The notes under the pieces were generated by a model. That model worked only from the letters and a program-made list of their open reading frames with translations. It searched no databases and was not told the DNA's origin. The translations under genes and the position numbers were made by a program. DNA of 64,000 nt from Solen grandis (taxonomy: Eukaryota; Mollusca; Bivalvia; Adapedonta; Solenidae): assembly GCA_021229015.1 (NCBI GenBank), contig CM037789.1:37572330-37636329 (forward strand). The letters are read 5' to 3'. Shown one piece after another: positions 11,946 to 19,866 of the stretch; the first letter of the stretch is position 1, and each line of letters opens with the position of its first letter.

Positions 11946-13307
11946 TGTTAAGTGTATAATGCATACTGCTTGGTGCTTAGTGGCAAGCGCTAATATACTT
12001 GCAAATACATTATAGTTTTCACTCTTATTTTTTTCAAGAGCTGTAATTACTTGTCATTAATAAACAAATGTTAAAGATATATATTATTGTTGCACTTTTT
12101 ATTTGGTAGAAAGCACAAAGCATTGAGCGCTATAGACGTCTGAAAAGAATCTACATATACATATATGGATGCTTGCTTTTCTCATTCGAAATGTATCATT
12201 TGGCAGTTAGCACATTGGTCTTAACATACTGATATATTAATAGCCAGTAAGCATATCATATTTAGCACAGCACACTTGTCATTTGAAACAATCTAACAAA
12301 AATGCAATTAGGCAACATGAAAAAGTATACATAATGCATGCAGATGTCATTTTTCATAAAGCATTCGGTAGTAAGCGTTTTGCAATATTTACATAAATAA
12401 TCTTCCATAAGCATGTACAGACTGCATCTCTTAACAAATCTGTAACAACCATTTTGCTTGTCTGTCCGAAGAACTTACATTGCTTTTGGAAGCATAAAGG
12501 ACCTTTAAGGAGCTCGCTCGCTCCACCCTTTCTTATTTCACTTAATATGTTCTAACTATTACATATCATAGCCAGGGTAACACAGAGCGAACTACTCGTA
12601 GGCCGAGATTGATTACCAGAAGTTACCCTATTTCGCCCCAGGATATGATATATCGAGATTGGATATTCCAAAACATTAATGATTTATCGTAATGAGTTGA
12701 AATTATAATCTATTTAAATAAATAACTTCATGTTCATTTATTCTAAAGAAATCAATAAATGAGAATTAAAAAAAAAAACTTCGAGAACCCCAACGAAAGA
12801 GACTGAACTGAACCAGATAAAGTCCTGATTACGTCAGAAAAACACATCAGACAAACCAGTATAGCTTAATCCATATTTGGAAACAACAGAAATTATTTAG
12901 GTTTTTGTTGGTCTTCAATTACTCCGCCGAATGTTTTGCCTTCTGCGCTTAACACCTGAAAATTTGAATTATTGAGATTTAATCTGAGTTTTAAAGTTCT
13001 TGACACATTGAATAATATATGCATTACATGTATTGTATTTCGGTTTGGAAGCTCACTAAAATTTAAAAAAGTACCCAGTACGTTGCTTTGACGAAGAACT
13101 GACCATGAAAAAAATCAACAATAAAAAGGTAGGTAACGTCTCCCATTTACGTACACGCAGCCGTTTCAGTTGCCGTTACTCCTTTTAGAATTGGTAGGTT
13201 TTGATAAAAAAAAAAAAGTCTTATTTTGCGTGAAAGGGATGAATAAAGACATACAGACACAAAAACACCCATTGCCTAAGACTTGACTTGACTATTTGCG
13301 TTAGTAG
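11946..13307. other. No gene recognised
   Basis: AT-rich sequence without supportable coding or RNA features. It lies directly outside the inferred left edge of the Polinton-like element. Confidence 0.45.
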
Positions 13308-13515
13308 TATAGGGTGGCACTATGGTACCAAGGTACCATAATTTTTTTTTTTATGGTACCGTGGTACCATAAATTTTTATTTTTTTTGGTACTTATGGTA
13401 CCAAAATCTATAGTACCGAATGGTACTCTATATGAAAACAGAATCTATAGTACCGAATGGTACTCTATATGAAAACAGAATCTATAGTACCGAATGGTAC
13501 TATATATGAAAACAG
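13308..13515. repeat. GGTACC palindrome cluster and 37-bp tandem array
   Basis: Five or more GGTACC or near-GGTACC sites lie in 13320-13400, including GGTACCAAGGTACC. Three 37-bp units follow, starting at 13405, 13442 and 13479, each with CTATAGTACCGAATGGTACT. The position at the end of the viral-like gene block makes it a candidate terminal repeat. The 5' sequence starts 'agtataggg', and Polinton ends often start with AG; that link is inference. Confidence 0.6.
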
Positions 13516-13539
13516 ATTTATGTAAAATTGTAAAAATGA

Positions 13540-13595
13540 CAATTGTAAAATGTCCTTTCGAGACATTTGGGTTGGCCCTGAAAAGGGCCGTTTTG
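13540..13595 (-). terminator. Histone-type 3' module 1
   Basis: Read on the minus strand: CAAAAC, stem-loop GGCCCTTTTCAGGGCC (13574-13589), AACCCA, then TCGAAAGGAC (13552-13561) exactly 12 nt after the stem, then CAATTG (13540-13545). The stem begins 14 nt after the TAA of the 13604-13900 gene. It matches the metazoan replication-dependent histone mRNA end: 6-bp GGCYCT stem, UUUC loop, ACCCA flank and purine-rich downstream element. Confidence 0.88.
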
Positions 13596-13603
13596 TTTCT
13601 TCT

Positions 13604-13900
13604 TTAGATTTCGGTGACATTGTCCACATCGTGCTCGGTTTCGATGCCATCGTCACTGATTACGATGACATCGTTTTCATCTTGTAAGATCTGCTGTTGT
13701 TCTATGAGCATATGATCTTCATCTTCATCTTGTTTTAACCCATGTTCATCGCGTTGCAATATCATCTGATGTACCATGTTTGACAAAATCAGATGGTATT
13801 CTGCAATATGGTCTTGCTGTTGTCTCCACTCATTGCGTTGTCGTTCGATCAACCCCATCAATTCGTGGACAAATTCATTCAGTTGCTGAATTTGTTCCAT
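13604..13900 (-). CDS. Small acidic coiled-coil protein with a SUMO-interacting motif
   Basis: A 98-residue intact ORF of no family I recognise. Residues 1-70 are rich in Q, E, H and L with heptad-like spacing, consistent with a coiled coil or helical oligomer. The C-terminal third is strongly acidic. Near residues 77-84 it has VIVISDD, the classical hydrophobic core plus acidic run of a SUMO-interacting motif, followed by more acidic residues. The TATA box (13944-13950, minus) lies 44 nt upstream of the ATG within promoter repeat P1. The stop is 14 nt before a histone-type stem-loop. The gene sits at the outer end of the accessory block. SUMO binding is inferred from the motif only; a role in modulating the host nucleus would fit, but is unproven. 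Confidence 0.7.
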   Translation of the reverse strand: MEQIQQLNEFVHELMGLIERQRNEWRQQQDHIAEYHLILSNMVHQMILQRDEHGLKQDEDEDHMLIEQQQILQDENDVIVISDDGIETEHDVDNVTEI

Positions 13901-13941
13901 GGTTGTGCAGCGAGAATATGACCGAATGCTTGATGCGGTGC

Positions 13942-14090
13942 GCTTTTATAGCCTTGAGGTGGATTGACCTACTTTCTACTGTTAGCGTACACCAATCAGA
14001 GAACGTTAGTTCTATTCAAGTTTAACCTTGACCTGAGTTAGATAGCATTGTCTTCGGCCTTGACATTTTGGGTTGGATTGACCTACTTTT
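13942..14090 (-). promoter_or_regulatory. Promoter repeat P1 (TATA, CCAAT, AGGTCA half-sites)
   Basis: About 150 bp nearly identical to P2 at 15268-15427. It holds TATAAAA (minus strand, 13944-13950), a plus-strand CCAAT in 'gtacaccaatcagag', and repeated TTGACCT/CCTTGACCT, the reverse complement of AGGTCA nuclear-receptor half-sites. It drives the 13604-13900 gene. Unlike P2, no plus-strand ORF follows on its other side. Confidence 0.7.
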
Positions 14091-14155
14091 GTATTGACAT
14101 ATCAGAATTGCTGTAAAATTAAAAAAAATTCAAGCCGAATTTGTAGTAGTGATGA

Positions 14156-14213
14156 CTTTTTTTTGTAACATTTTTGTAACATTTTTGTAACATTTTTGTA
14201 ACATTTTTATAAA
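14156..14213. repeat. 11-bp tandem array
   Basis: About four to five units of TTTTTGTAACA between promoter repeat P1 and the next histone-type module. Confidence 0.9.
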
Positions 14214-14272
14214 ACATTGGATCATATTTTTAATGAAAGAAAATTTTGAATGGAACTTGAAAATAATGGTGA

Positions 14273-14330
14273 CAATTGAGGTATATTCTCTTTCGAGACA
14301 TTTGGGTTGGCCCTGATAAGGGCCGTTGTT
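14273..14330 (-). terminator. Histone-type 3' module 2
   Basis: Minus strand: AACAAC, stem-loop GGCCCTTATCAGGGCC (14309-14324), AACCCA, then TCGAAAGAGA (14287-14296) after exactly 12 nt, then CAATTG (14273-14278). The loop is UAUC rather than UUUC, keeping the U at loop positions 1 and 3 that histone loops conserve. The downstream CGAAAGAGA is close to the mammalian histone downstream element AAAGAG. The stem starts 23 nt after the stop of the 14348-14644 gene. Confidence 0.85.
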
Positions 14331-14347
14331 TTTTCACAGAGTAGTGG

Positions 14348-14644
14348 TTACTCTATTTGTCTATGAGTTTTCTTCAGCAGGTATTCAACATGTTCTATGG
14401 TGATGAAATGTGCTTCAATGATATTTAAGATATCATCGTAGTATAGTTCATGAAAGTAACATGCACTCAATTTGTCTATGATACTCCTGAGTGTTGTTGT
14501 TATTTTAAGCGTACGTTGGTATCGGGCTTGTAGTTTAAGCGAACGTTGGTGTCGGGCTTCTATTTTGTCCATGTCAGATATGCAGTCGATAGTTATATGT
14601 GACTTATCCATAGCACAGTCTGAAAACGAATGGCATGAATTCAT
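14348..14644 (-). CDS. Small helical protein of unknown function
   Basis: A 98-residue intact ORF, not recognised. It has a Cys/His/Asp-containing N-terminus (residues 1-30), a duplicated RYQRTLK/RHQRSLK-like stretch around residues 32-50, then predicted helices rich in I, L, H and E to the C-terminus. No signal peptide or membrane segment is seen. The upstream region is short: the previous gene's 3' module ends at 14676, and a TATA-like AAATAAAAG lies in the minus strand near 14655-14663. It is therefore packed head-to-tail behind the 14746-15231 gene with under 40 nt for a promoter. It ends before histone-type module 2, like its neighbours. Confidence 0.6.
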   Translation of the reverse strand: MNSCHSFSDCAMDKSHITIDCISDMDKIEARHQRSLKLQARYQRTLKITTTLRSIIDKLSACYFHELYYDDILNIIEAHFITIEHVEYLLKKTHRQIE

Positions 14645-14675
14645 TTCGTTTGATACTTTTATTTACTTGGTTTGA

Positions 14676-14735
14676 CAATTGTAAAAATATGTCCTTTCGA
14701 GACATCTGGGTTGGCCCTGAAAAGGGCCGTTGTTT
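14676..14735 (-). terminator. Histone-type 3' module 3
   Basis: Minus strand: AACAAC, stem-loop GGCCCTTTTCAGGGCC (14713-14728), AACCCA, then TCGAAAGGAC (14691-14700) after exactly 12 nt, then CAATTG (14676-14681). The stem starts 17 nt after the TAG of the 14746-15231 gene. Confidence 0.88.
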
Positions 14736-14745
14736 TTTTCTCTCT

Positions 14746-15231
14746 CTACTTCTTACTCTTTTTGCTATTTTGTATGTCTTTACAATGGGCTCCAAGTCCA
14801 TTCTTAGAATGGGATCCGCCATCAAGTGGACGTTTGTTGGATGCTTCCACATTTTCTGGAATGAAAGTGATAGGCACCACCAGTTTGTCTGTTTTCATTT
14901 TGATACGGCATTCCACTTCTACCATTCTCTTTTGCAATTTGATGAGGTTGTTGTTCACCTCTTTGAGTTCCCTCAGAATAGATTGTCCAACATTATTTAC
15001 TGGCTGCACTGCCGGTTGGTGTTGCATTGGTTGTTGCACTGGTTGTTGTTGCTGTACTGGTTGCTGCTGGTGTGGTGGAGGCTGAGGTTGATACGTTGGT
15101 TGGTAGCTGGGTTGGTATATCGGAGTCGGAGTGTACGACACTGATGCCTGGTTAGCAGCTGTAGTCAGCTCATACAAATCAGCAGCCTGTATGGCGTTGT
15201 TAACGATATCAGAAGTTACGTAGCTTTCCAT
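14746..15231 (-). CDS. Pro/Gln-rich protein with coiled coil and basic tail
   Basis: A 161-residue intact ORF, family not recognised. Residues 1-30 are helical and Ala/Thr-rich. About 33-80 is low-complexity P/Q/Y with YQP and QQPVQ repeats. About 85-115 is a Leu/Ile/Asn heptad coiled coil. The last 30 residues are basic and end in SKKSKK, a plausible nuclear localisation or nucleic-acid-binding tail. The TATA box (15269-15275, minus) is 38 nt upstream of the ATG in bidirectional promoter P2. The gene ends 17 nt before histone-type module 3. The modular layout would suit a nuclear regulatory or virion-core protein. I cannot choose between these. Confidence 0.7.
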   Translation of the reverse strand: MESYVTSDIVNNAIQAADLYELTTAANQASVSYTPTPIYQPSYQPTYQPQPPPHQQQPVQQQQPVQQPMQHQPAVQPVNNVGQSILRELKEVNNNLIKLQKRMVEVECRIKMKTDKLVVPITFIPENVEASNKRPLDGGSHSKNGLGAHCKDIQNSKKSKK

Positions 15232-15267
15232 GGTTGGATAGTAGGATTATGATACGATGCATGTGTG

Positions 15268-15447
15268 CTTTTATAGTCTTGAGGCGGATTGACCTACTTT
15301 CTACTGTTAGCGTACACCAATCAGAGAATGTAATTTCCATCCAATGAATCAAGTTCGACCTTGACCTAAGTTGGATAGCATTGTCTTCGGCCTTGACATT
15401 TGGGGATGGATTGACCTACTGACCTACTTTTTTCATAACTATATAAG
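15268..15447. promoter_or_regulatory. Bidirectional promoter repeat P2
   Basis: Lies in the 249-bp space between the divergent genes at 15231 (minus) and 15481 (plus). It has TATAAAA on the minus strand (15269-15275) and TATATAAG on the plus strand (15440-15447), 38 and 33 nt from the respective ATGs. The shared central part carries CCAAT ('gtacaccaatcagag') and several TTGACCT half-sites. About 150 bp are duplicated at P1 (13942-14090). Confidence 0.75.
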
Positions 15448-15480
15448 TGTTTTTTTTTTTAAAAAGAAGATGAAATCACA

Positions 15481-15744
15481 ATGTCCGAACAAAAACTCTG
15501 GTTCGAAAAGTGTGGTGTGTGTTTAGAGGAGAGGGAGGAGGATATATATCACATAAACCAGTGTCAATGTCAGGACATTGTATGCGTCAGATGCTTCGCA
15601 CGGCTTCAGAAGTGCCCGTTTTGTAGGGCACCCTATCAAGTGTATGCCTGGCCTGCCTGTGTTTTCGCTAAACATGGGCCTACAGTGCGCTCAGCCTATT
15701 ATGGCATATGGTTTGACCCTGATTATTCAGAGTTAGTAGGGTGA
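15481..15744 (+). CDS. Small RING-finger protein (putative E3 ubiquitin ligase)
   Basis: An 87-residue intact ORF. A RING-type zinc module fills residues 11-53: C11-x2-C14, then a Cys cluster CQCQDIVC with C-x2-C, and the closing CPFCRAPY. Spacing is that of a compact RING (C3HC4-like, with Cys replacing the usual His region). RING proteins of this size are common in large DNA viruses and viral-like elements, where they recruit E2 enzymes. The 34 C-terminal residues are Tyr/Trp-rich and unassigned. It is the only plus-strand gene of the block, fired from P2, and it ends 34 nt before a histone-type stem-loop on its own strand. E3 activity is inferred from the family. Confidence 0.8.
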   Translation: MSEQKLWFEKCGVCLEEREEDIYHINQCQCQDIVCVRCFARLQKCPFCRAPYQVYAWPACVFAKHGPTVRSAYYGIWFDPDYSELVG

Positions 15745-15769
15745 CTCCGAGTAATTCAGGATCACAAAA

Positions 15770-15829
15770 ACCAAATACGGCCCTTTTCAGGGCCATCAAA
15801 CTATATTCGAGAGGAATATATCACAATTG
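15770..15829 (+). terminator. Histone-type 3' module 4 (plus strand)
   Basis: Plus strand: CAAATAC, stem-loop GGCCCTTTTCAGGGCC (15779-15794), ATCAAA, then TCGAGAGGAA (15807-15816) after exactly 12 nt, then CAATTG (15824-15829). Orientation follows the RING gene, opposite to modules 1-3. This argues against a simple dispersed palindromic repeat. Confidence 0.88.
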
Positions 15830-15873
15830 TTAATGTGTAAGATAAACAACAAGAAATCAATCAGTTTTAGCCT

Positions 15874-15879
15874 TTTATT
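15874..15879 (-). terminator. AATAAA poly(A) signal of the protease gene
   Basis: Minus-strand AATAAA 82 nt after the protease stop, 45 nt from the end of the convergent module 4. No stem-loop lies between the protease stop and this signal, so the virion-gene transcript appears to end by polyadenylation. Confidence 0.65.
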
Positions 15880-15960
15880 GAACTCTATGAACATTGCAAA
15901 CAAAATATGAACAAACAATATGAACAATGCAAACACTATGAACAACAAGTACATAACACT

Positions 15961-16602
15961 TTAATGAAAGTAGAATGGGTCCAAACTATTCGTCAGTAAT
16001 TCAAAACACGCACGACCATCTCCAAACTTTGGTGGATGTTTAGCTGTGCATGTTTGTTGGTGCTGATTACACACTTGTCTTCTTGCACGTTTGTACAGTT
16101 CTGAATAGTTCTGGTAAAACCAACATCCCACATTGGAATCGTTCAAATTGAAGTGAGGTTGATCCTCTGTCCGGAATTTAGCTCTAAACACCCGTGTTAA
16201 ATCACATCCTCGAACAAGAAAATGCAAAGCAAACAAACAATATGCTCCACACACAAACGTGTTGTATCCTTGAAGTCTCATGAGATTCCATGTATAGGGT
16301 CCATGTCTTTCCAAGAAACGTTGAATGTCACAATGGAGTGGTTTTTGTCCATACGAATCAAAGTAGTAAGTCGATTTATCGTTGAAAAACACAACCACCC
16401 AATGTTCACCAGGTTGAGTCGAATTGTGGGTATTCACTATGTAAGCTTTTACAGTCTCTGGTCTACGTTGTGGTAGTTGATCTTTAGCACATACCACGGC
16501 ATTCAAGGGAGCTAGAATTGGTGAATGATCCAAAATATACTGCAACTCAATCGTTTCCATTTTCCCAATCTTGTTTAATGCGTCCTGCCCATTCGCACTC
16601 AA
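15961..16602 (-). CDS. PRO: Adenain-type cysteine protease (PRO)
   Basis: A 213-residue intact ORF of the adenovirus endoprotease/Ulp1-like C5 family used by Polintons and adintoviruses to process capsid precursors. Catalytic residues in order: His67 in GEHWVVVFF, Asp82 in YYFDSYG, Gln111 (oxyanion) in LQGYN, and Cys118 in TFVCGAYC. The length is typical for the family. The first Met is in the overlap with the upstream gene; Met15 (codon at 16558-16560) is an equally likely start, leaving a 14-nt overlap. It is the last gene of the packed minus-strand virion module. Unlike its upstream neighbours it has no frame break, and all catalytic residues are present. Family assignment is firm; activity is inferred. 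Confidence 0.92.
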   Translation of the reverse strand: MSANGQDALNKIGKMETIELQYILDHSPILAPLNAVVCAKDQLPQRRPETVKAYIVNTHNSTQPGEHWVVVFFNDKSTYYFDSYGQKPLHCDIQRFLERHGPYTWNLMRLQGYNTFVCGAYCLFALHFLVRGCDLTRVFRAKFRTEDQPHFNLNDSNVGCWFYQNYSELYKRARRQVCNQHQQTCTAKHPPKFGDGRACFELLTNSLDPFYFH

Positions 16603-16999
16603 AAGTTTCCAATGGTGTGATCTTGTTCGTATCTACACTAGCCTTTATATTTGCCCACATCTGATAAGCATCAGCTTTCTCAGCGCGTGTGAGATCCATG
16701 TTTTGTAGTTCAGCGTACCATCTTTCCATCACTTGATACATGTCCAGTTTTTTTAATGCACTGTTCAGAAACATCTCGACCCACTCACTTTTGCTGCTAA
16801 ACAAACATAGGGGATGTTGGGTCTGACTGGGATGATCAACAATGCAACCATAACAGTTTTCTTTCACGATATCAAAGAGGTGTGTCTGCAGTTCATGCAC
16901 CACATGCTGGTTCAAACTCTTTACCATATCGTTTCGCCTATTCAAGTTGTAGATTTCTTCGTACAGTTGTTTGGCCAGCTGTTGTCCTGATTTGCTCAT
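16547..16999 (-). CDS. Cys/His-signature protein of unknown function (NCYGC family)
   Basis: A 150-residue intact ORF between major capsid and protease. It is mostly helical and charged. Its hallmark is near residues 47-63: ENCYGCIVDHPSQTQHPLC, four Cys/His pairs in a tight cluster that looks zinc-binding. The same cluster occurs at a separate locus in this window (36732-37007). The ATG follows the capsid TAA by 2 nt, and its 3' end overlaps the protease start, so it must be expressed from the same transcript or by re-initiation. Two Trp-rich helical segments follow the cluster. The position suggests a virion-assembly or accessory role; no function is known to me. Confidence 0.75.
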   Translation of the reverse strand: MSKSGQQLAKQLYEEIYNLNRRNDMVKSLNQHVVHELQTHLFDIVKENCYGCIVDHPSQTQHPLCLFSSKSEWVEMFLNSALKKLDMYQVMERWYAELQNMDLTRAEKADAYQMWANIKASVDTNKITPLETFECEWAGRIKQDWENGND

Positions 17000-17001
17000 G
17001 G

Positions 17002-18297
17002 TTAATAGTCTGTGATGACTTCTCTGAACCCGTTAATCTCTATCTGACTGTCATATTCGGCATACACAATCACATGATGGGGTCACCAAGAGCTACACGA
17101 AACTGAACCTCGATTCGCAAGTTTCCCGTTTTTTATAGGATGCAGCTGTCCCTCTTCTGATCCTTGATCTGGCGTTAAGTCAATGCCCCACAGTGTGTAC
17201 CCCTGCATGTAATCGTCCATTGTCAGACCCATGGAGCGGTTTAAACCGAGTGATCCCGTGGCTTGATGCAGGGACATGTATGATCTCAAAATTTCTCCTG
17301 TGGGAAAGTTAGGCTGGAACGGCAAGTTGTGTGTCGTCTTTCCGTCTACACTGACTTCTAACTTAGACAAGTTGAAATGTTGAAATCAAATGGTTGTTGC
17401 CAGATCACCGTTCATGTCTGTATTCTTTACCAGCCTAAATGATACGTTTGGGTAACTGTCCTTGAATAAAATGATCTTCGATCTTTGATCGTTGGCCTGC
17501 AGGAATGGTGAAAGTTTTTACCTCAGCTCGGCGAATTGAGATCTTCATGCCATGTTGAGCGATGGTCTGGTTTAAGTTGTTGGCCACTACGGGTAACAGG
17601 TCAACAGTCCGAACATTGAATCCAGCTTGAAGTAACTGGATTTTTGCCTCTGCTCCAAACAGGCAAAAACTGACTGGGGTTCTGTTGATGCGCAGCCGTA
17701 TCTCTACACCATTGGGAAGGTACTTGTCTTGCAAACACAGATCTAAATGCAGACGTCCGCACATTTCCAGAACACGACTCCTGTGGATACGTGTTCTTCT
17801 TTTAGTAAATCCTTCATTATCTTCCGCAACTGTATGCTCTTGCATATGACCCGCCGTGTCAGGACTCCACATTTCCGTAGCGTAGAGCTGTGTTGATTTA
17901 CTGTCCGTAGAATAAGACAGCAAATTCTCAATGTAGGCCCTGTACGCATATGTGTCAGCATTATTGGTGATTCAGTTTGTTGTTCAGGTACACATAAATT
18001 TACTGCTAAACAAGCTGTGGAAGAAATTATTTCTGTGGAGGGTTTCTCCATCCCCAGCCAATTAGTGCCATCCGGTTTGACTACTTTGACTTTCAGGTAA
18101 AGTAGCTCGGGTTTTGATATCAGTCCACTTTTCTGATTGAGCAGGAATTACAAATTCAAGGGGGAAATGAATTGCTCAGTGCTGACACAGGATAATGTTC
18201 TGCCCACTGTGCATCTTGCATTGCTGTCATGGTAGGTGGAACATGTGACCACATCAAGTTCAGTTTTGCTACACTCACAAGAGCCGTGTTGCATCAT
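17002..18297 (-). pseudogene. MCP: Major capsid protein (hexon-like, double jelly roll), frame-broken
   Basis: Roughly 430 codons of Polinton/adintovirus major capsid protein. Recognisable blocks in order: an ELD-type N-terminus near 18270; a YLKVKVVKPDGTN strand near 18080; TYAYRAYIENLLSY near 17930; a LHLDLC..D segment near 17740; the KTFTIPAG and GQLPKR region near 17450-17520; a GY.LWGIDLTPD segment near 17170-17210; and an EIN-type C-terminal strand before TAA at 17002. The frame changes about eight times, several in homopolymers (G-run 18160-18164, T-run 18112-18115). ATG at 18297 follows the upstream stop by 5 nt; TAA is 2 nt before the next ATG. Family is firm. Whether the breaks are real or consensus errors near the gap is open. 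Confidence 0.88.
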
Positions 18298-18302
18298 GTT
18301 GT

Positions 18303-18661
18303 TCAATCAAAAATATCTGACGGTCGCGATGAGATTTTTCTTTTTTGTTGCGTCTCTTGCCGCGCTGAAAGCAGAATGGTGTCGACGTTTGAAATCTCGA
18401 AGCTTATACCTCTCAGAGTTTTCAGCCCCACATCTTTCAACAATGTTTTACCCCGTTTTGATCACGTTTTTAATTTTGGGGCCGACAGAAATCTTTTAAC
18501 GGCTCCTATACCTTTTTTTAAAACCCCTCTCTTTTCAGAGTCTTTAGTCCTGAGGTCACGATGGGTTTCTTCATGGGTAAGAGTTGCTGGCCTTTTCTTG
18601 AACATGGACCCCAAAAACCTATCCGACTTGTCGAGCTTGACCACGGTAAACGGGAAATCAT
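18303..18661 (-). pseudogene. Small basic virion-module ORF, frame-broken
   Basis: Between penton and major capsid lies about 120 codons of Lys/Arg-rich sequence. Different frames hold KKGIGAVKRFLSAPKLKT and a KKKNL/KRKISSRPSDIF-like C-terminus, so the intact product cannot be read directly. Its ATG (18659-18661) overlaps the penton stop as ATGA. Two candidate stops (18303-18305 or 18307-18309) lie just before the major capsid ATG. Polintons and adintoviruses often encode a small basic, Gly/Lys-rich protein here, compared with adenovirus core/minor proteins. That comparison is positional inference. At least two frame changes are needed to span it. Confidence 0.5.
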
Positions 18662-19500
18662 CGTGTCTTTCGTTTAAAATGAAGCTTCACCATCGACTTC
18701 CCGTGAGTGAAATGAACTGATTCCCCTGTGTCACGGTTAAATTGATTACTGATCTCACTGAAATATGATCTGCTGACGGGTATGTAGGTAGATTTAGAAA
18801 TTCAAAGGGGCATGTGTGGATTAGCCCCTGCTTTTGTTTTTGTGGCAAATGGCACAACGCGAAAAAAGGGGTGCTTCGACATCCCCTATCAAAGTGTGTT
18901 CTGCCAAATCGGTATATACAAACAAGTGGTTCATCTTCGTGAAGAGGTCCACACCGTACTTGAATCTGTTGTTGTCTCTGTCCGGAAACACCTCAGTACT
19001 TCCCTCTCCTCCAAGTTTCGTAAGGAGATTGGATGAATTTTCCAACCCGATCTTTGATCCCAGTATTTACCGGTAAACTTGCACGTTTTTGACAAGCCGG
19101 AAAAATCAAGTCCAAATGTGAGGTTTCTTTGAGTTAAAATTGTTTTAGTGGCTTGTTTAATAGCTTTGTCCAATTCGTCATGAGTGTTGGTGACGCATAG
19201 ATGCCTGCAGGAAACAAAGGGTTATTGCCCATTTTTTTGCCTTCTAATTCACACCCGTTTTTCACTTGTGAAAAGGCTGAAGCCATTTTCTGGATCTTTA
19301 GTCACGAAGTAGAATTTTCCTTCCTCCTCTTCAATGTTTCTGACTTGTGGGTGGGAACGATCTTTTCCACGAGAGCCACTTCCCAATTTTGTTTGTCGAC
19401 ATCAATTGGTTTTTGTCAGCTTGGTTCTAAAACAGCATTGTTGTTGTTTGGGTACAAGCCATCAAACATAAATGATGAGAGTGATGTAGAAAGAGTTCAT
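18658..19500 (-). pseudogene. Minor capsid (penton-like) protein, frame-broken
   Basis: About 280 codons of the Polinton/adintovirus penton protein (single jelly roll, vertex capsomer). Seen blocks: N-terminal MNSFYITL at 19477-19500; YPNNNNAVL near 19445; WEVALVEKIVP near 19360; FVTKDPENGFSLF near 19290; KYGVDLF and NHLFVYTDLAEH near 18910-18960; PHMPLNF-like near 18800; and the closing GKSMVKLHFKRK before TGA at 18658. Frame changes occur about six times, one in the A-run 18862-18867. The start codon sits 8 nt from the assembly gap. The stop overlaps the next start as ATGA. Length and block order are as expected for a complete gene. Confidence 0.85.
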
Positions 19501-19509
19501 GGTTTCTTA

Positions 19510-19609
19510 NNNNNNNNNNNNNNNNNNNNNNNNNNNNNNNNNNNNNNNNNNNNNNNNNNNNNNNNNNNNNNNNNNNNNNNNNNNNNNNNNNNNNNNNNNN
19601 NNNNNNNNN
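19510..19609. other. Assembly gap of 100 N
   Basis: Exactly 100 N, the conventional length for a gap of unknown size. The left side is coding DNA of the Polinton-like element; the right side is a SINE. So the missing part of the element, if any, lies here. Confidence 0.99.
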
Positions 19610-19866
19610 AGTATTTCAGTCATTTGGAGACGATGTCTACTTAATGCAGTTATAGTGCTGCCACACTGCAGTATCACGCTGTAGACATGTGGCATGATAC
19701 CACACCCAGTCACAAAATCCTGATACCGAGCCAACCAGTCCTGCAACTACCCTTATATGCTGAGCGTCAAGCAAGGGAGTTATACCAGTTCCATTTTTTA
19801 CGACTTTGGTATCGAACCCACGACCTCTCGCTCCCGAGGCGGACGCTCTAACCACTCGGCCACCGG
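19610..19866 (-). mobile_element. SINE family A, nearly full
   Basis: Minus-strand copy: tRNA-like head GTGGCCGAGTGGTTAGAGCG (about 19840-19862) with B box GGGTTCGATACC, body 'ctcagcatataagggtagttg', and 3' end 'aatgactgaaatact' at the gap. It is a relative of the copies at 45903 and 58263. A 72-codon ORF over it is not a gene. Confidence 0.85.

Follow-up and report, generated by a model that had tools for sequence, protein, structure and literature searches.

Histone-type promoter and 3'-end signals at the accessory genes of a Polinton-like mobile element in the bivalve Solen grandis

Histone pre-mRNA is processed by a pathway of its own: SLBP binds a 3' stem-loop, the U7 small nuclear ribonucleoprotein (snRNP) binds an element downstream of it, cleavage takes place past the stem, and the product, which lacks poly(A), is bound to S phase. 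Among mobile elements, 6-bp target-site duplications are typical of Polintons. Both systems are of interest for a stretch of 64,000 nucleotides (nt) of Solen grandis (assembly GCA_021229015.1, contig CM037789.1, positions 37,572,330 to 37,636,329 of the forward strand), called the window in what follows. Four small accessory genes in it belong to a many-copy mobile element which, judged by its sequence, is Polinton/adintovirus-like. The DNA signals at these genes match those of the host's histone genes, and the spacing, strand, copy number and gene assignment of the element's signals are established. We think that the element probably copies the histone-gene cassette of its host for the accessory genes, with signals at both ends, and such histone-like start and end signals suggest that these genes are tied to the DNA-replication machinery of the host. 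The stem-loop/SLBP/U7 pathway is covered in part in the sections of PMC5011920 used here, and in those of PMC6210712 histone mRNAs with the stem-loop are described for the bivalve Lucina, with purine-rich elements for some genes only and partly elsewhere.

As the original prediction had stated, the four genes, here named A to D, end in a histone-type stem-loop on the coding strand, three on the minus strand and one on the plus strand, 14-34 nt past the stop of the same-strand open reading frame (ORF; A 14, B 23, C 17, D 34 nt). The stem-loop is GGCCCTTTTCAGGGCC at 13574-13589(-), 14713-14728(-) and 15779-15794(+), and GGCCCTTATCAGGGCC at 14309-14324(-). The box TCGARAGR follows exactly 12 nt past it in all four modules, also as predicted, and is itself followed by CAATTG; the gap between these two parts had been given as 6-9 nt and measures 8-11 nt. 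Module A (13536..13594, minus strand) is composed of the stem-loop at 13589-13574, 12 nt, TCGAAAGG, 8 nt and CAATTG; in module B (14269..14329, minus strand), which has the loop TATC, the box is TCGAAAGA and the gap 10 nt; module C (14672..14733, minus strand) again has TCGAAAGG, with a gap of 11 nt, and module D (15774..15833, plus strand) has TCGAGAGG and 9 nt. With up to three mismatches, the stem-loop has five matches in the window, of which one is the 14309 site read on the other strand; 0.16 are expected, and none of 100 shuffles reaches five. The Rfam Histone3 model (RF00032), run at a relaxed threshold over positions 13400-16000, finds only these four sites, with 28.8-31.7 bits (A 31.0, B 28.8, C 31.7, D 31.4) and E values of 1.7e-5 to 1.4e-6. 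A pattern for the whole module matches the same four places of the window and is absent from the 905,813 bases of the 101 stretches of public viral contigs (viral_contigs, IMG/VR) that hold the bare stem-loop. Fuller copies of the element have six accessory genes with a stem-loop 3' end, the other two being named E and F. Modules A, B and C, together with F elsewhere, have a common downstream flank, so that the six represent about three independent contexts (A/B/C/F, D and E) rather than six. The region upstream of B (14645-14745) is at the same time the 3' end of C, and B may be a gene of its own or its module a back-up 3' end for C.

The natural term of comparison is the histone genes of the same genome, in which a profile search gives 37 PF00125 matches with tandem clusters on C3 and C1. 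Two cluster pieces (L152, L153) and three dispersed H2A loci (L154-L156) were read. The clustered H1, H2A, H2B, H3 and H4 genes end in the same arrangement as the element modules: the stem-loop is GGCCCTTTTTAGGGCC in the core histone genes and GGTCCTTTTCAGGACC in H1, 12-13 nt separate the stem from a GAAAG/GAAAAG core, and 10-17 nt further on comes TTGT. The CAATTG part, which had been held to be extra to the histone signal, proved not to be so, as it is found exactly in 5 of 11 aligned host histone ends (H3, H4 and one H2B) and as a close variant in the other six, namely CAGTTG in three (H1 and one H2B), AAATTG in two (H2A) and CATTG in one dispersed H2A variant. Its presence in the same place behind host histone genes makes it part of this host's histone arrangement. 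The conserved host block CAATTG/CAGTTG/AAATTG, which ends in TTGT and lies 12-17 nt past the core of the histone downstream element (HDE) in L152 and L153, could be an additional 3' element, either an extended U7 pairing or a termination signal. Of the three dispersed H2A loci, two have a stem-loop as well.

The 11 host histone 3' ends, with zero element sequence, served to train a covariance model, R1. Applied to the 64-kb window, the model returns 14 matches with E values of at most 10, among which the four element sites stand at 1.6e-10 (A, 56.3 bits), 1.2e-9 (B, 52.6 bits), 1.6e-10 (C, 56.2 bits) and 2.7e-8 (D, 46.7 bits), and the ten others at 0.28 or worse. On 10 of 30 element loci it gives 26 matches in eight loci, all with E values of 5.6e-9 or better, and it has no match in the interior polymerase-capsid pieces L157 and L158. 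When the 11 host modules and the six element modules are aligned, 102 of 102 stem cells are paired in a pattern GGYYCT...AGRRCC, with a 6-bp stem and a 4-nt loop, and one pair has changed in a compensatory way, from C-G to U-A, in two copies of H1 and in signal E of the element. Signal E is GGTCCTTTTCAGGACC, identical to the stem-loop of H1. The element modules thus share with the 3' ends of metazoan replication-dependent histone mRNAs the stem and loop sizes, the GAAAG/GAGAG box at about the histone spacing and the position just past the stop, and with those of this host the CAATTG-type downstream block as well. They differ in sitting on non-histone genes of a mobile element: in contrast to the host genes, the scanned element ORFs match no histone family. 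Between the stem end and the GAAA/GAGA core, the five element modules measured have 14 nt each and six host modules 12-13 nt.

The accessory genes also resemble histone genes at their start. The word GTAGGTCAATCC lies upstream of A directly before TATAAAA (13961..13972, minus strand), with a second copy in the same promoter at 14075..14086 (minus strand). The divergent promoter of C and D has one copy on the C side, again before TATAAAA (15286..15297, minus strand), and one on the D side (15408..15419, minus strand, reversed relative to D), and two copies are likewise present in the divergent promoter of E and F. The promoters of five of the six accessory genes contain the word, and at A, C and F one copy directly precedes the TATA box. 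Allowing one mismatch, it occurs four times in the window, always in accessory promoters, against 0.19 expected; it is absent from the polymerase-capsid pieces L157 and L158. The same word stands upstream of a TATA-like box in clustered host genes, at about 10 nt in H2A and at about 20 nt in H2B, where the C1 copy has one mismatch. This motif common to element and host histone genes, which goes beyond what the original prediction had seen, favours its idea of a coupling to histone expression.

The longest words common to the element promoters and the histone promoters measure 15 nt for H2B, 14 nt for H4 and 13 nt for H2A, against at most 9 nt for the putative promoter stretches in front of the PolB ORF and of the protease. 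Since GTAGGTCAATCC had been spotted by looking, a shuffle control was applied: in the C3 cluster, three of the five histone promoters have a 12-mer in common with element promoters, a number reached by none of 2000 dinucleotide shuffles, and for the longest word alone 1 of 500 shuffles has a longer one. Across the genome GTAGGTCAATCC occurs 2082 times against 55 for the reversed control. Among the first 100 occurrences listed, 89 have a listed stem-loop no more than 2 kb away, such surroundings making up 0.44% of that stretch, and 56 of the 58 stem-loops of the same stretch have the word within 2 kb. The element promoters (A, C/D and E/F) are paralogous; with the flanks of A, B, C and F being shared as well, the independent acquisitions may be as few as one to three.

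The modules are repeated at many places of the 1.32-Gb genome, which was searched as a whole on both strands with the reversed pattern as control. GGCCCTTTTCAGGGCC occurs 1245 times (613+632), and followed by exactly 12 nt and TCGARAG 1005 times (497+508), both with zero in the control. The stem-loop type of H1 and E is found 472 times (227+245); nine of the 100 matches listed belong to the two histone clusters. For the host core type the count is 72, and 38 of these come from the same clusters. In the element loci, by reading, every stem-loop listed stands behind the end of one of the six genes, whichever way it is oriented, save one chance match (L123). The conservation of the module was studied in 27 loci (L103 and L105 were dropped for overlap) with 63 modules anchored on the six gene ends. 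These loci were chosen by an exact stem-loop, which biases stem conservation for A, C, D and F and leaves the box and CAATTG unbiased. The box lies at 11-13 nt in 58 of the 63 modules, and CAATTG is present within 55 nt in 58 of 63. When the six modules are pooled, the diversity per site amounts to 0.017 in the box and 0.031 in CAATTGT, compared to 0.076 in the spacer and 0.052 and 0.056 in the flanks, which is a modest difference.

With signals of the host's own kind on the accessory genes, the simplest inference is that these are handled by the host machinery as histone genes. The element has two classes of genes. The leftward strand with PolB, ATPase, capsid and protease ends at a conventional AATAAA, and so does a CCHC gene; the hexamer at 15874..15879 (minus strand), 81 nt past the protease stop, is likely the poly(A) signal of this virion and polymerase strand, and the CCHC gene has an AATAAA 90-96 nt past its stop. 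The accessory class is marked by a GTAGGTCAATCC-plus-TATA promoter (in five of six genes) and by a 3' end of stem-loop, HDE and CAATTG (in six of six). Its transcripts would be bound by host SLBP, the gene of which is represented by two stretches on C9, both over the PF15247 cut-off, and would be cut by host U7 snRNP a few nucleotides past the stem. The resulting mRNAs would have no poly(A) and would be made and translated mainly alongside the histones, during S phase or in embryonic or germ cells that divide rapidly, perhaps with the histone locus body as the site of their synthesis. The core of what had been predicted about histone processing has strong support: the module matches the 3' signal of the clustered host histone genes, SLBP is present in the host and the virion strand ends at AATAAA; we infer the rest, that is, the coupling to S phase and the absence of poly(A), together with transcription, cleavage, timing and any benefit of the accessory genes. 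On balance, we lean towards the full proposal of an accessory regulon mimicking replication-dependent histone genes at both ends, its mRNAs being poly(A)-less, SLBP-dependent and locked to S phase and those of the virion and polymerase genes polyadenylated.

Several observations weigh against this proposal. The gathering score of Rfam Histone3 (34) is reached nowhere in the window, and no site in the element loci L102 and L104 passes it, compared to 10 of 15 sites of the host clusters; the five host sites that also fail include all three H1 sites. Host core histones have the loop TTTT, whereas the element has TTTC, as H1 does, or TATC. A dispersed open H2A-like gene (L156:897-1274, minus strand) has no detectable stem-loop. 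In the promoters, both copies of GTAGGTCAATCC point toward C and F and are therefore reversed for D and E; B has no histone-type promoter motif in the 220 nt upstream; clustered H1 and H3 share no such word with the element, and the dispersed H2A loci L154-L156 lack GTAGGTCAATCC. A host U7 small nuclear RNA was not found by Rfam or pattern searches of the genome. RF00066 has no match in the whole genome, with its controls silent too; the pattern CTTTCGA..Sm has 14 places against 23 in the control, none being U7-like by eye and fold; and a looser pattern has 130 against 441, where none of eight candidates chosen among 100 listed passes the Rfam U7 gathering score, the best having 16.4 of 34 bits. 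Past the stops, AATAAA occurs at 82 nt for C, 9 nt for E and 222 nt for A, and ATTAAA at 113 nt for B and 122-125 nt for E; these poly(A)-like hexamers near A, B, C and E make poly(A) ends possible. Clear coding constraint is seen in D only: 13 of its 17 shared variable sites are at third codon positions, which indicates purifying selection at the codon level, compared to 4/18 in A, 6/24 in B, 9/25 in C, 3/10 in E and 6/19 in F. Finally, in E taken alone the diversity of the stem (0.110), box (0.042) and CAATTGT (0.067) is not clearly below that of the flanks (0.064 and 0.082), and the copies are young, so that conservation among them is weak evidence.

Part of this material would fit a relic of capture. 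The genes, or one ancestor that multiplied within the element, would then have arrived with histone flanks from the cluster of the host; their signals would by now be mostly passive, and the genes in fact polyadenylated or read through. The common downstream flank of A, B, C and F, the common promoter of A, C/D and E/F, the AATAAA near C and E and the little coding constraint in A, B, C, E and F all speak for such a history. However, the spacers of D and E differ while the spacing is the same, E keeps a compensated stem, the pooled diversity of box and CAATTG is below that of the spacer, and the box has kept its distance of 11-13 nt in most of the sampled modules, all of which makes a passive relic unlikely in our opinion. 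We find much less probable a signal acting at the level of DNA, such as a replication origin or a site for packaging or transposition, with the hairpin form a coincidence. It is favoured by modules A and F, which lie at the inner border of the terminal repeats; against it, modules B-E have an internal position, the modules, by reading, stand on the coding strand behind their genes whichever way these point, and the sequence is that of host histone 3' ends, with the box and the CAATTG-type part included. The least credible explanation, to which we give practically no weight, is a chance GC hairpin or a look-alike of an intrinsic terminator. It can appeal to the bare stem-loop in the 101 IMG/VR stretches, which have no histone context, yet none of their bases holds the full module, far less than one bare match is expected in the window, and the model of host histone ends picks the four sites alone. 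The chance hairpin or phage-type terminator was rejected on these three grounds. The reading as a copied histone cassette is the one that we retain.

The gene map of the element is a composite from pieces of different copies. From the left terminal repeat, the order is A, B and C, read leftward, and then D, read rightward; next to D comes one leftward strand with the protease, an ORF of unassigned function, an F54H12.2-like capsid gene, further ORFs, an A32-like ATPase and PolB; the right end has the CCHC gene and then E and F, with stem-loops 19 and 49 nt past the stop, respectively. In the window, ORF A (13604..13900, minus strand) is an open frame of 98 amino acids (aa) with no Pfam family above cut-off, ORF B (14348..14644, minus strand) also has 98 aa, ORF C (14746..15231, minus strand) has 161 aa and is Gln/Pro-rich, and ORF D (15481..15744, plus strand) has 87 aa and is RING-finger-like, with RING models at E values of about 2e-4, below the Pfam cut-offs. 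On the virion side there follow an adenain-like cysteine protease (15961..16560, minus strand; open frame of 199 aa, Peptidase_C5 E value 0.0046, below cut-off), an open frame to which the Pfam scan assigns no function (16547..16999, minus strand) and a major-capsid-like gene (17083..18147, minus strand), which is split over several frames here and was compared by eye with L157. Past the broken capsid gene, at 18150-19650, the copy is hard to trace and heads into a stretch read as N. The alignment of the protease with 52 homologues has conserved GEHW, D and C columns, presumably the catalytic residues. For the capsid piece L157:1060-1917 the closest named homologues are F54H12.2-like proteins from Mercenaria and Crassostrea, which agrees with a bivalve host; the ATPase matches Pox_A32 with 26.6 bits against a cut-off of 22.8, and PolB, which we take to be of the protein-primed kind, matches PF03175 with 107.6 bits. 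Among 1042 candidate protease copies, the best 150, which were those scored, are 97-100% identical to that of the window and 22, the window's included, are 100% identical, which speaks for a very recent burst of the element.

The left terminal inverted repeat of the window's copy (13303..13601, inner edge approximate) begins AGTAGTATAGGGTGGCA, has the same terminus in other sampled copies, and is preceded directly by a putative 6-bp target-site copy, TGCGTT (13297-13302). The right end of this copy was not found in the window, which agrees with the lack of long inverted repeats within positions 10000-36000. In one other copy the two ends agree over 259 of 265 columns, and a 6-bp target-site duplication is present, by reading, in all three copies with both ends at hand (L102/L105, L112/L113 and L118/L119). 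The two outermost genes of the element, A and F (L102:1246-1528, minus strand; L105:1489-1772, plus strand), point outward, and their ends reach the inner margin of the terminal repeats. As they end within these repeats, one repeated sequence is the 3' signal of two different genes.

PolB, a packaging-type ATPase, an F54H12.2-like capsid, an adenain-like protease, terminal inverted repeats and 6-bp duplications are the features in which the element resembles Polintons (Mavericks) and adintoviruses. It differs from them in its accessory genes, with their histone-type promoters and 3' ends, and perhaps in the integrase: no match to the family rve was obtained in 28 ORF pieces (29 scans), some frames being outside these scans and the copies partly broken. 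An element with 6-bp target-site duplications and no integrase recognised in those pieces may use an integrase in trans. No relatives were found in the public collection viral_contigs by the protease or by its alignment, and the comparison therefore rests on one genome. The module has two matches to bacterial metagenome-assembled genomes in genome_contigs, which lack CAATTG in the 60 downstream bases shown and were taken as chance.

In the open-access literature searched, no title or opening part of an abstract describes 3' ends of the histone type for Polintons, adintoviruses or other mobile elements, nor does a term search of the adintovirus papers PMC11071308 and PMC11071296 give a passage on them. 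The processing machinery is known; its user and the double-ended mimicry appear to be new. If the proposal is true, there would be a class of non-histone viral mRNAs that end in the histone stem-loop, and such mRNAs would escape poly(A)-selected RNA sequencing. The element would offer an experiment of nature on which parts of the histone signals are sufficient, and the comparison brings out the CAATTG-type block and GTAGGTCAATCC as candidate components of histone regulation in the host itself. Genes of a mobile element would be a second user of the histone 3' pathway, which would provide them with a simple tie to the DNA replication of their host.

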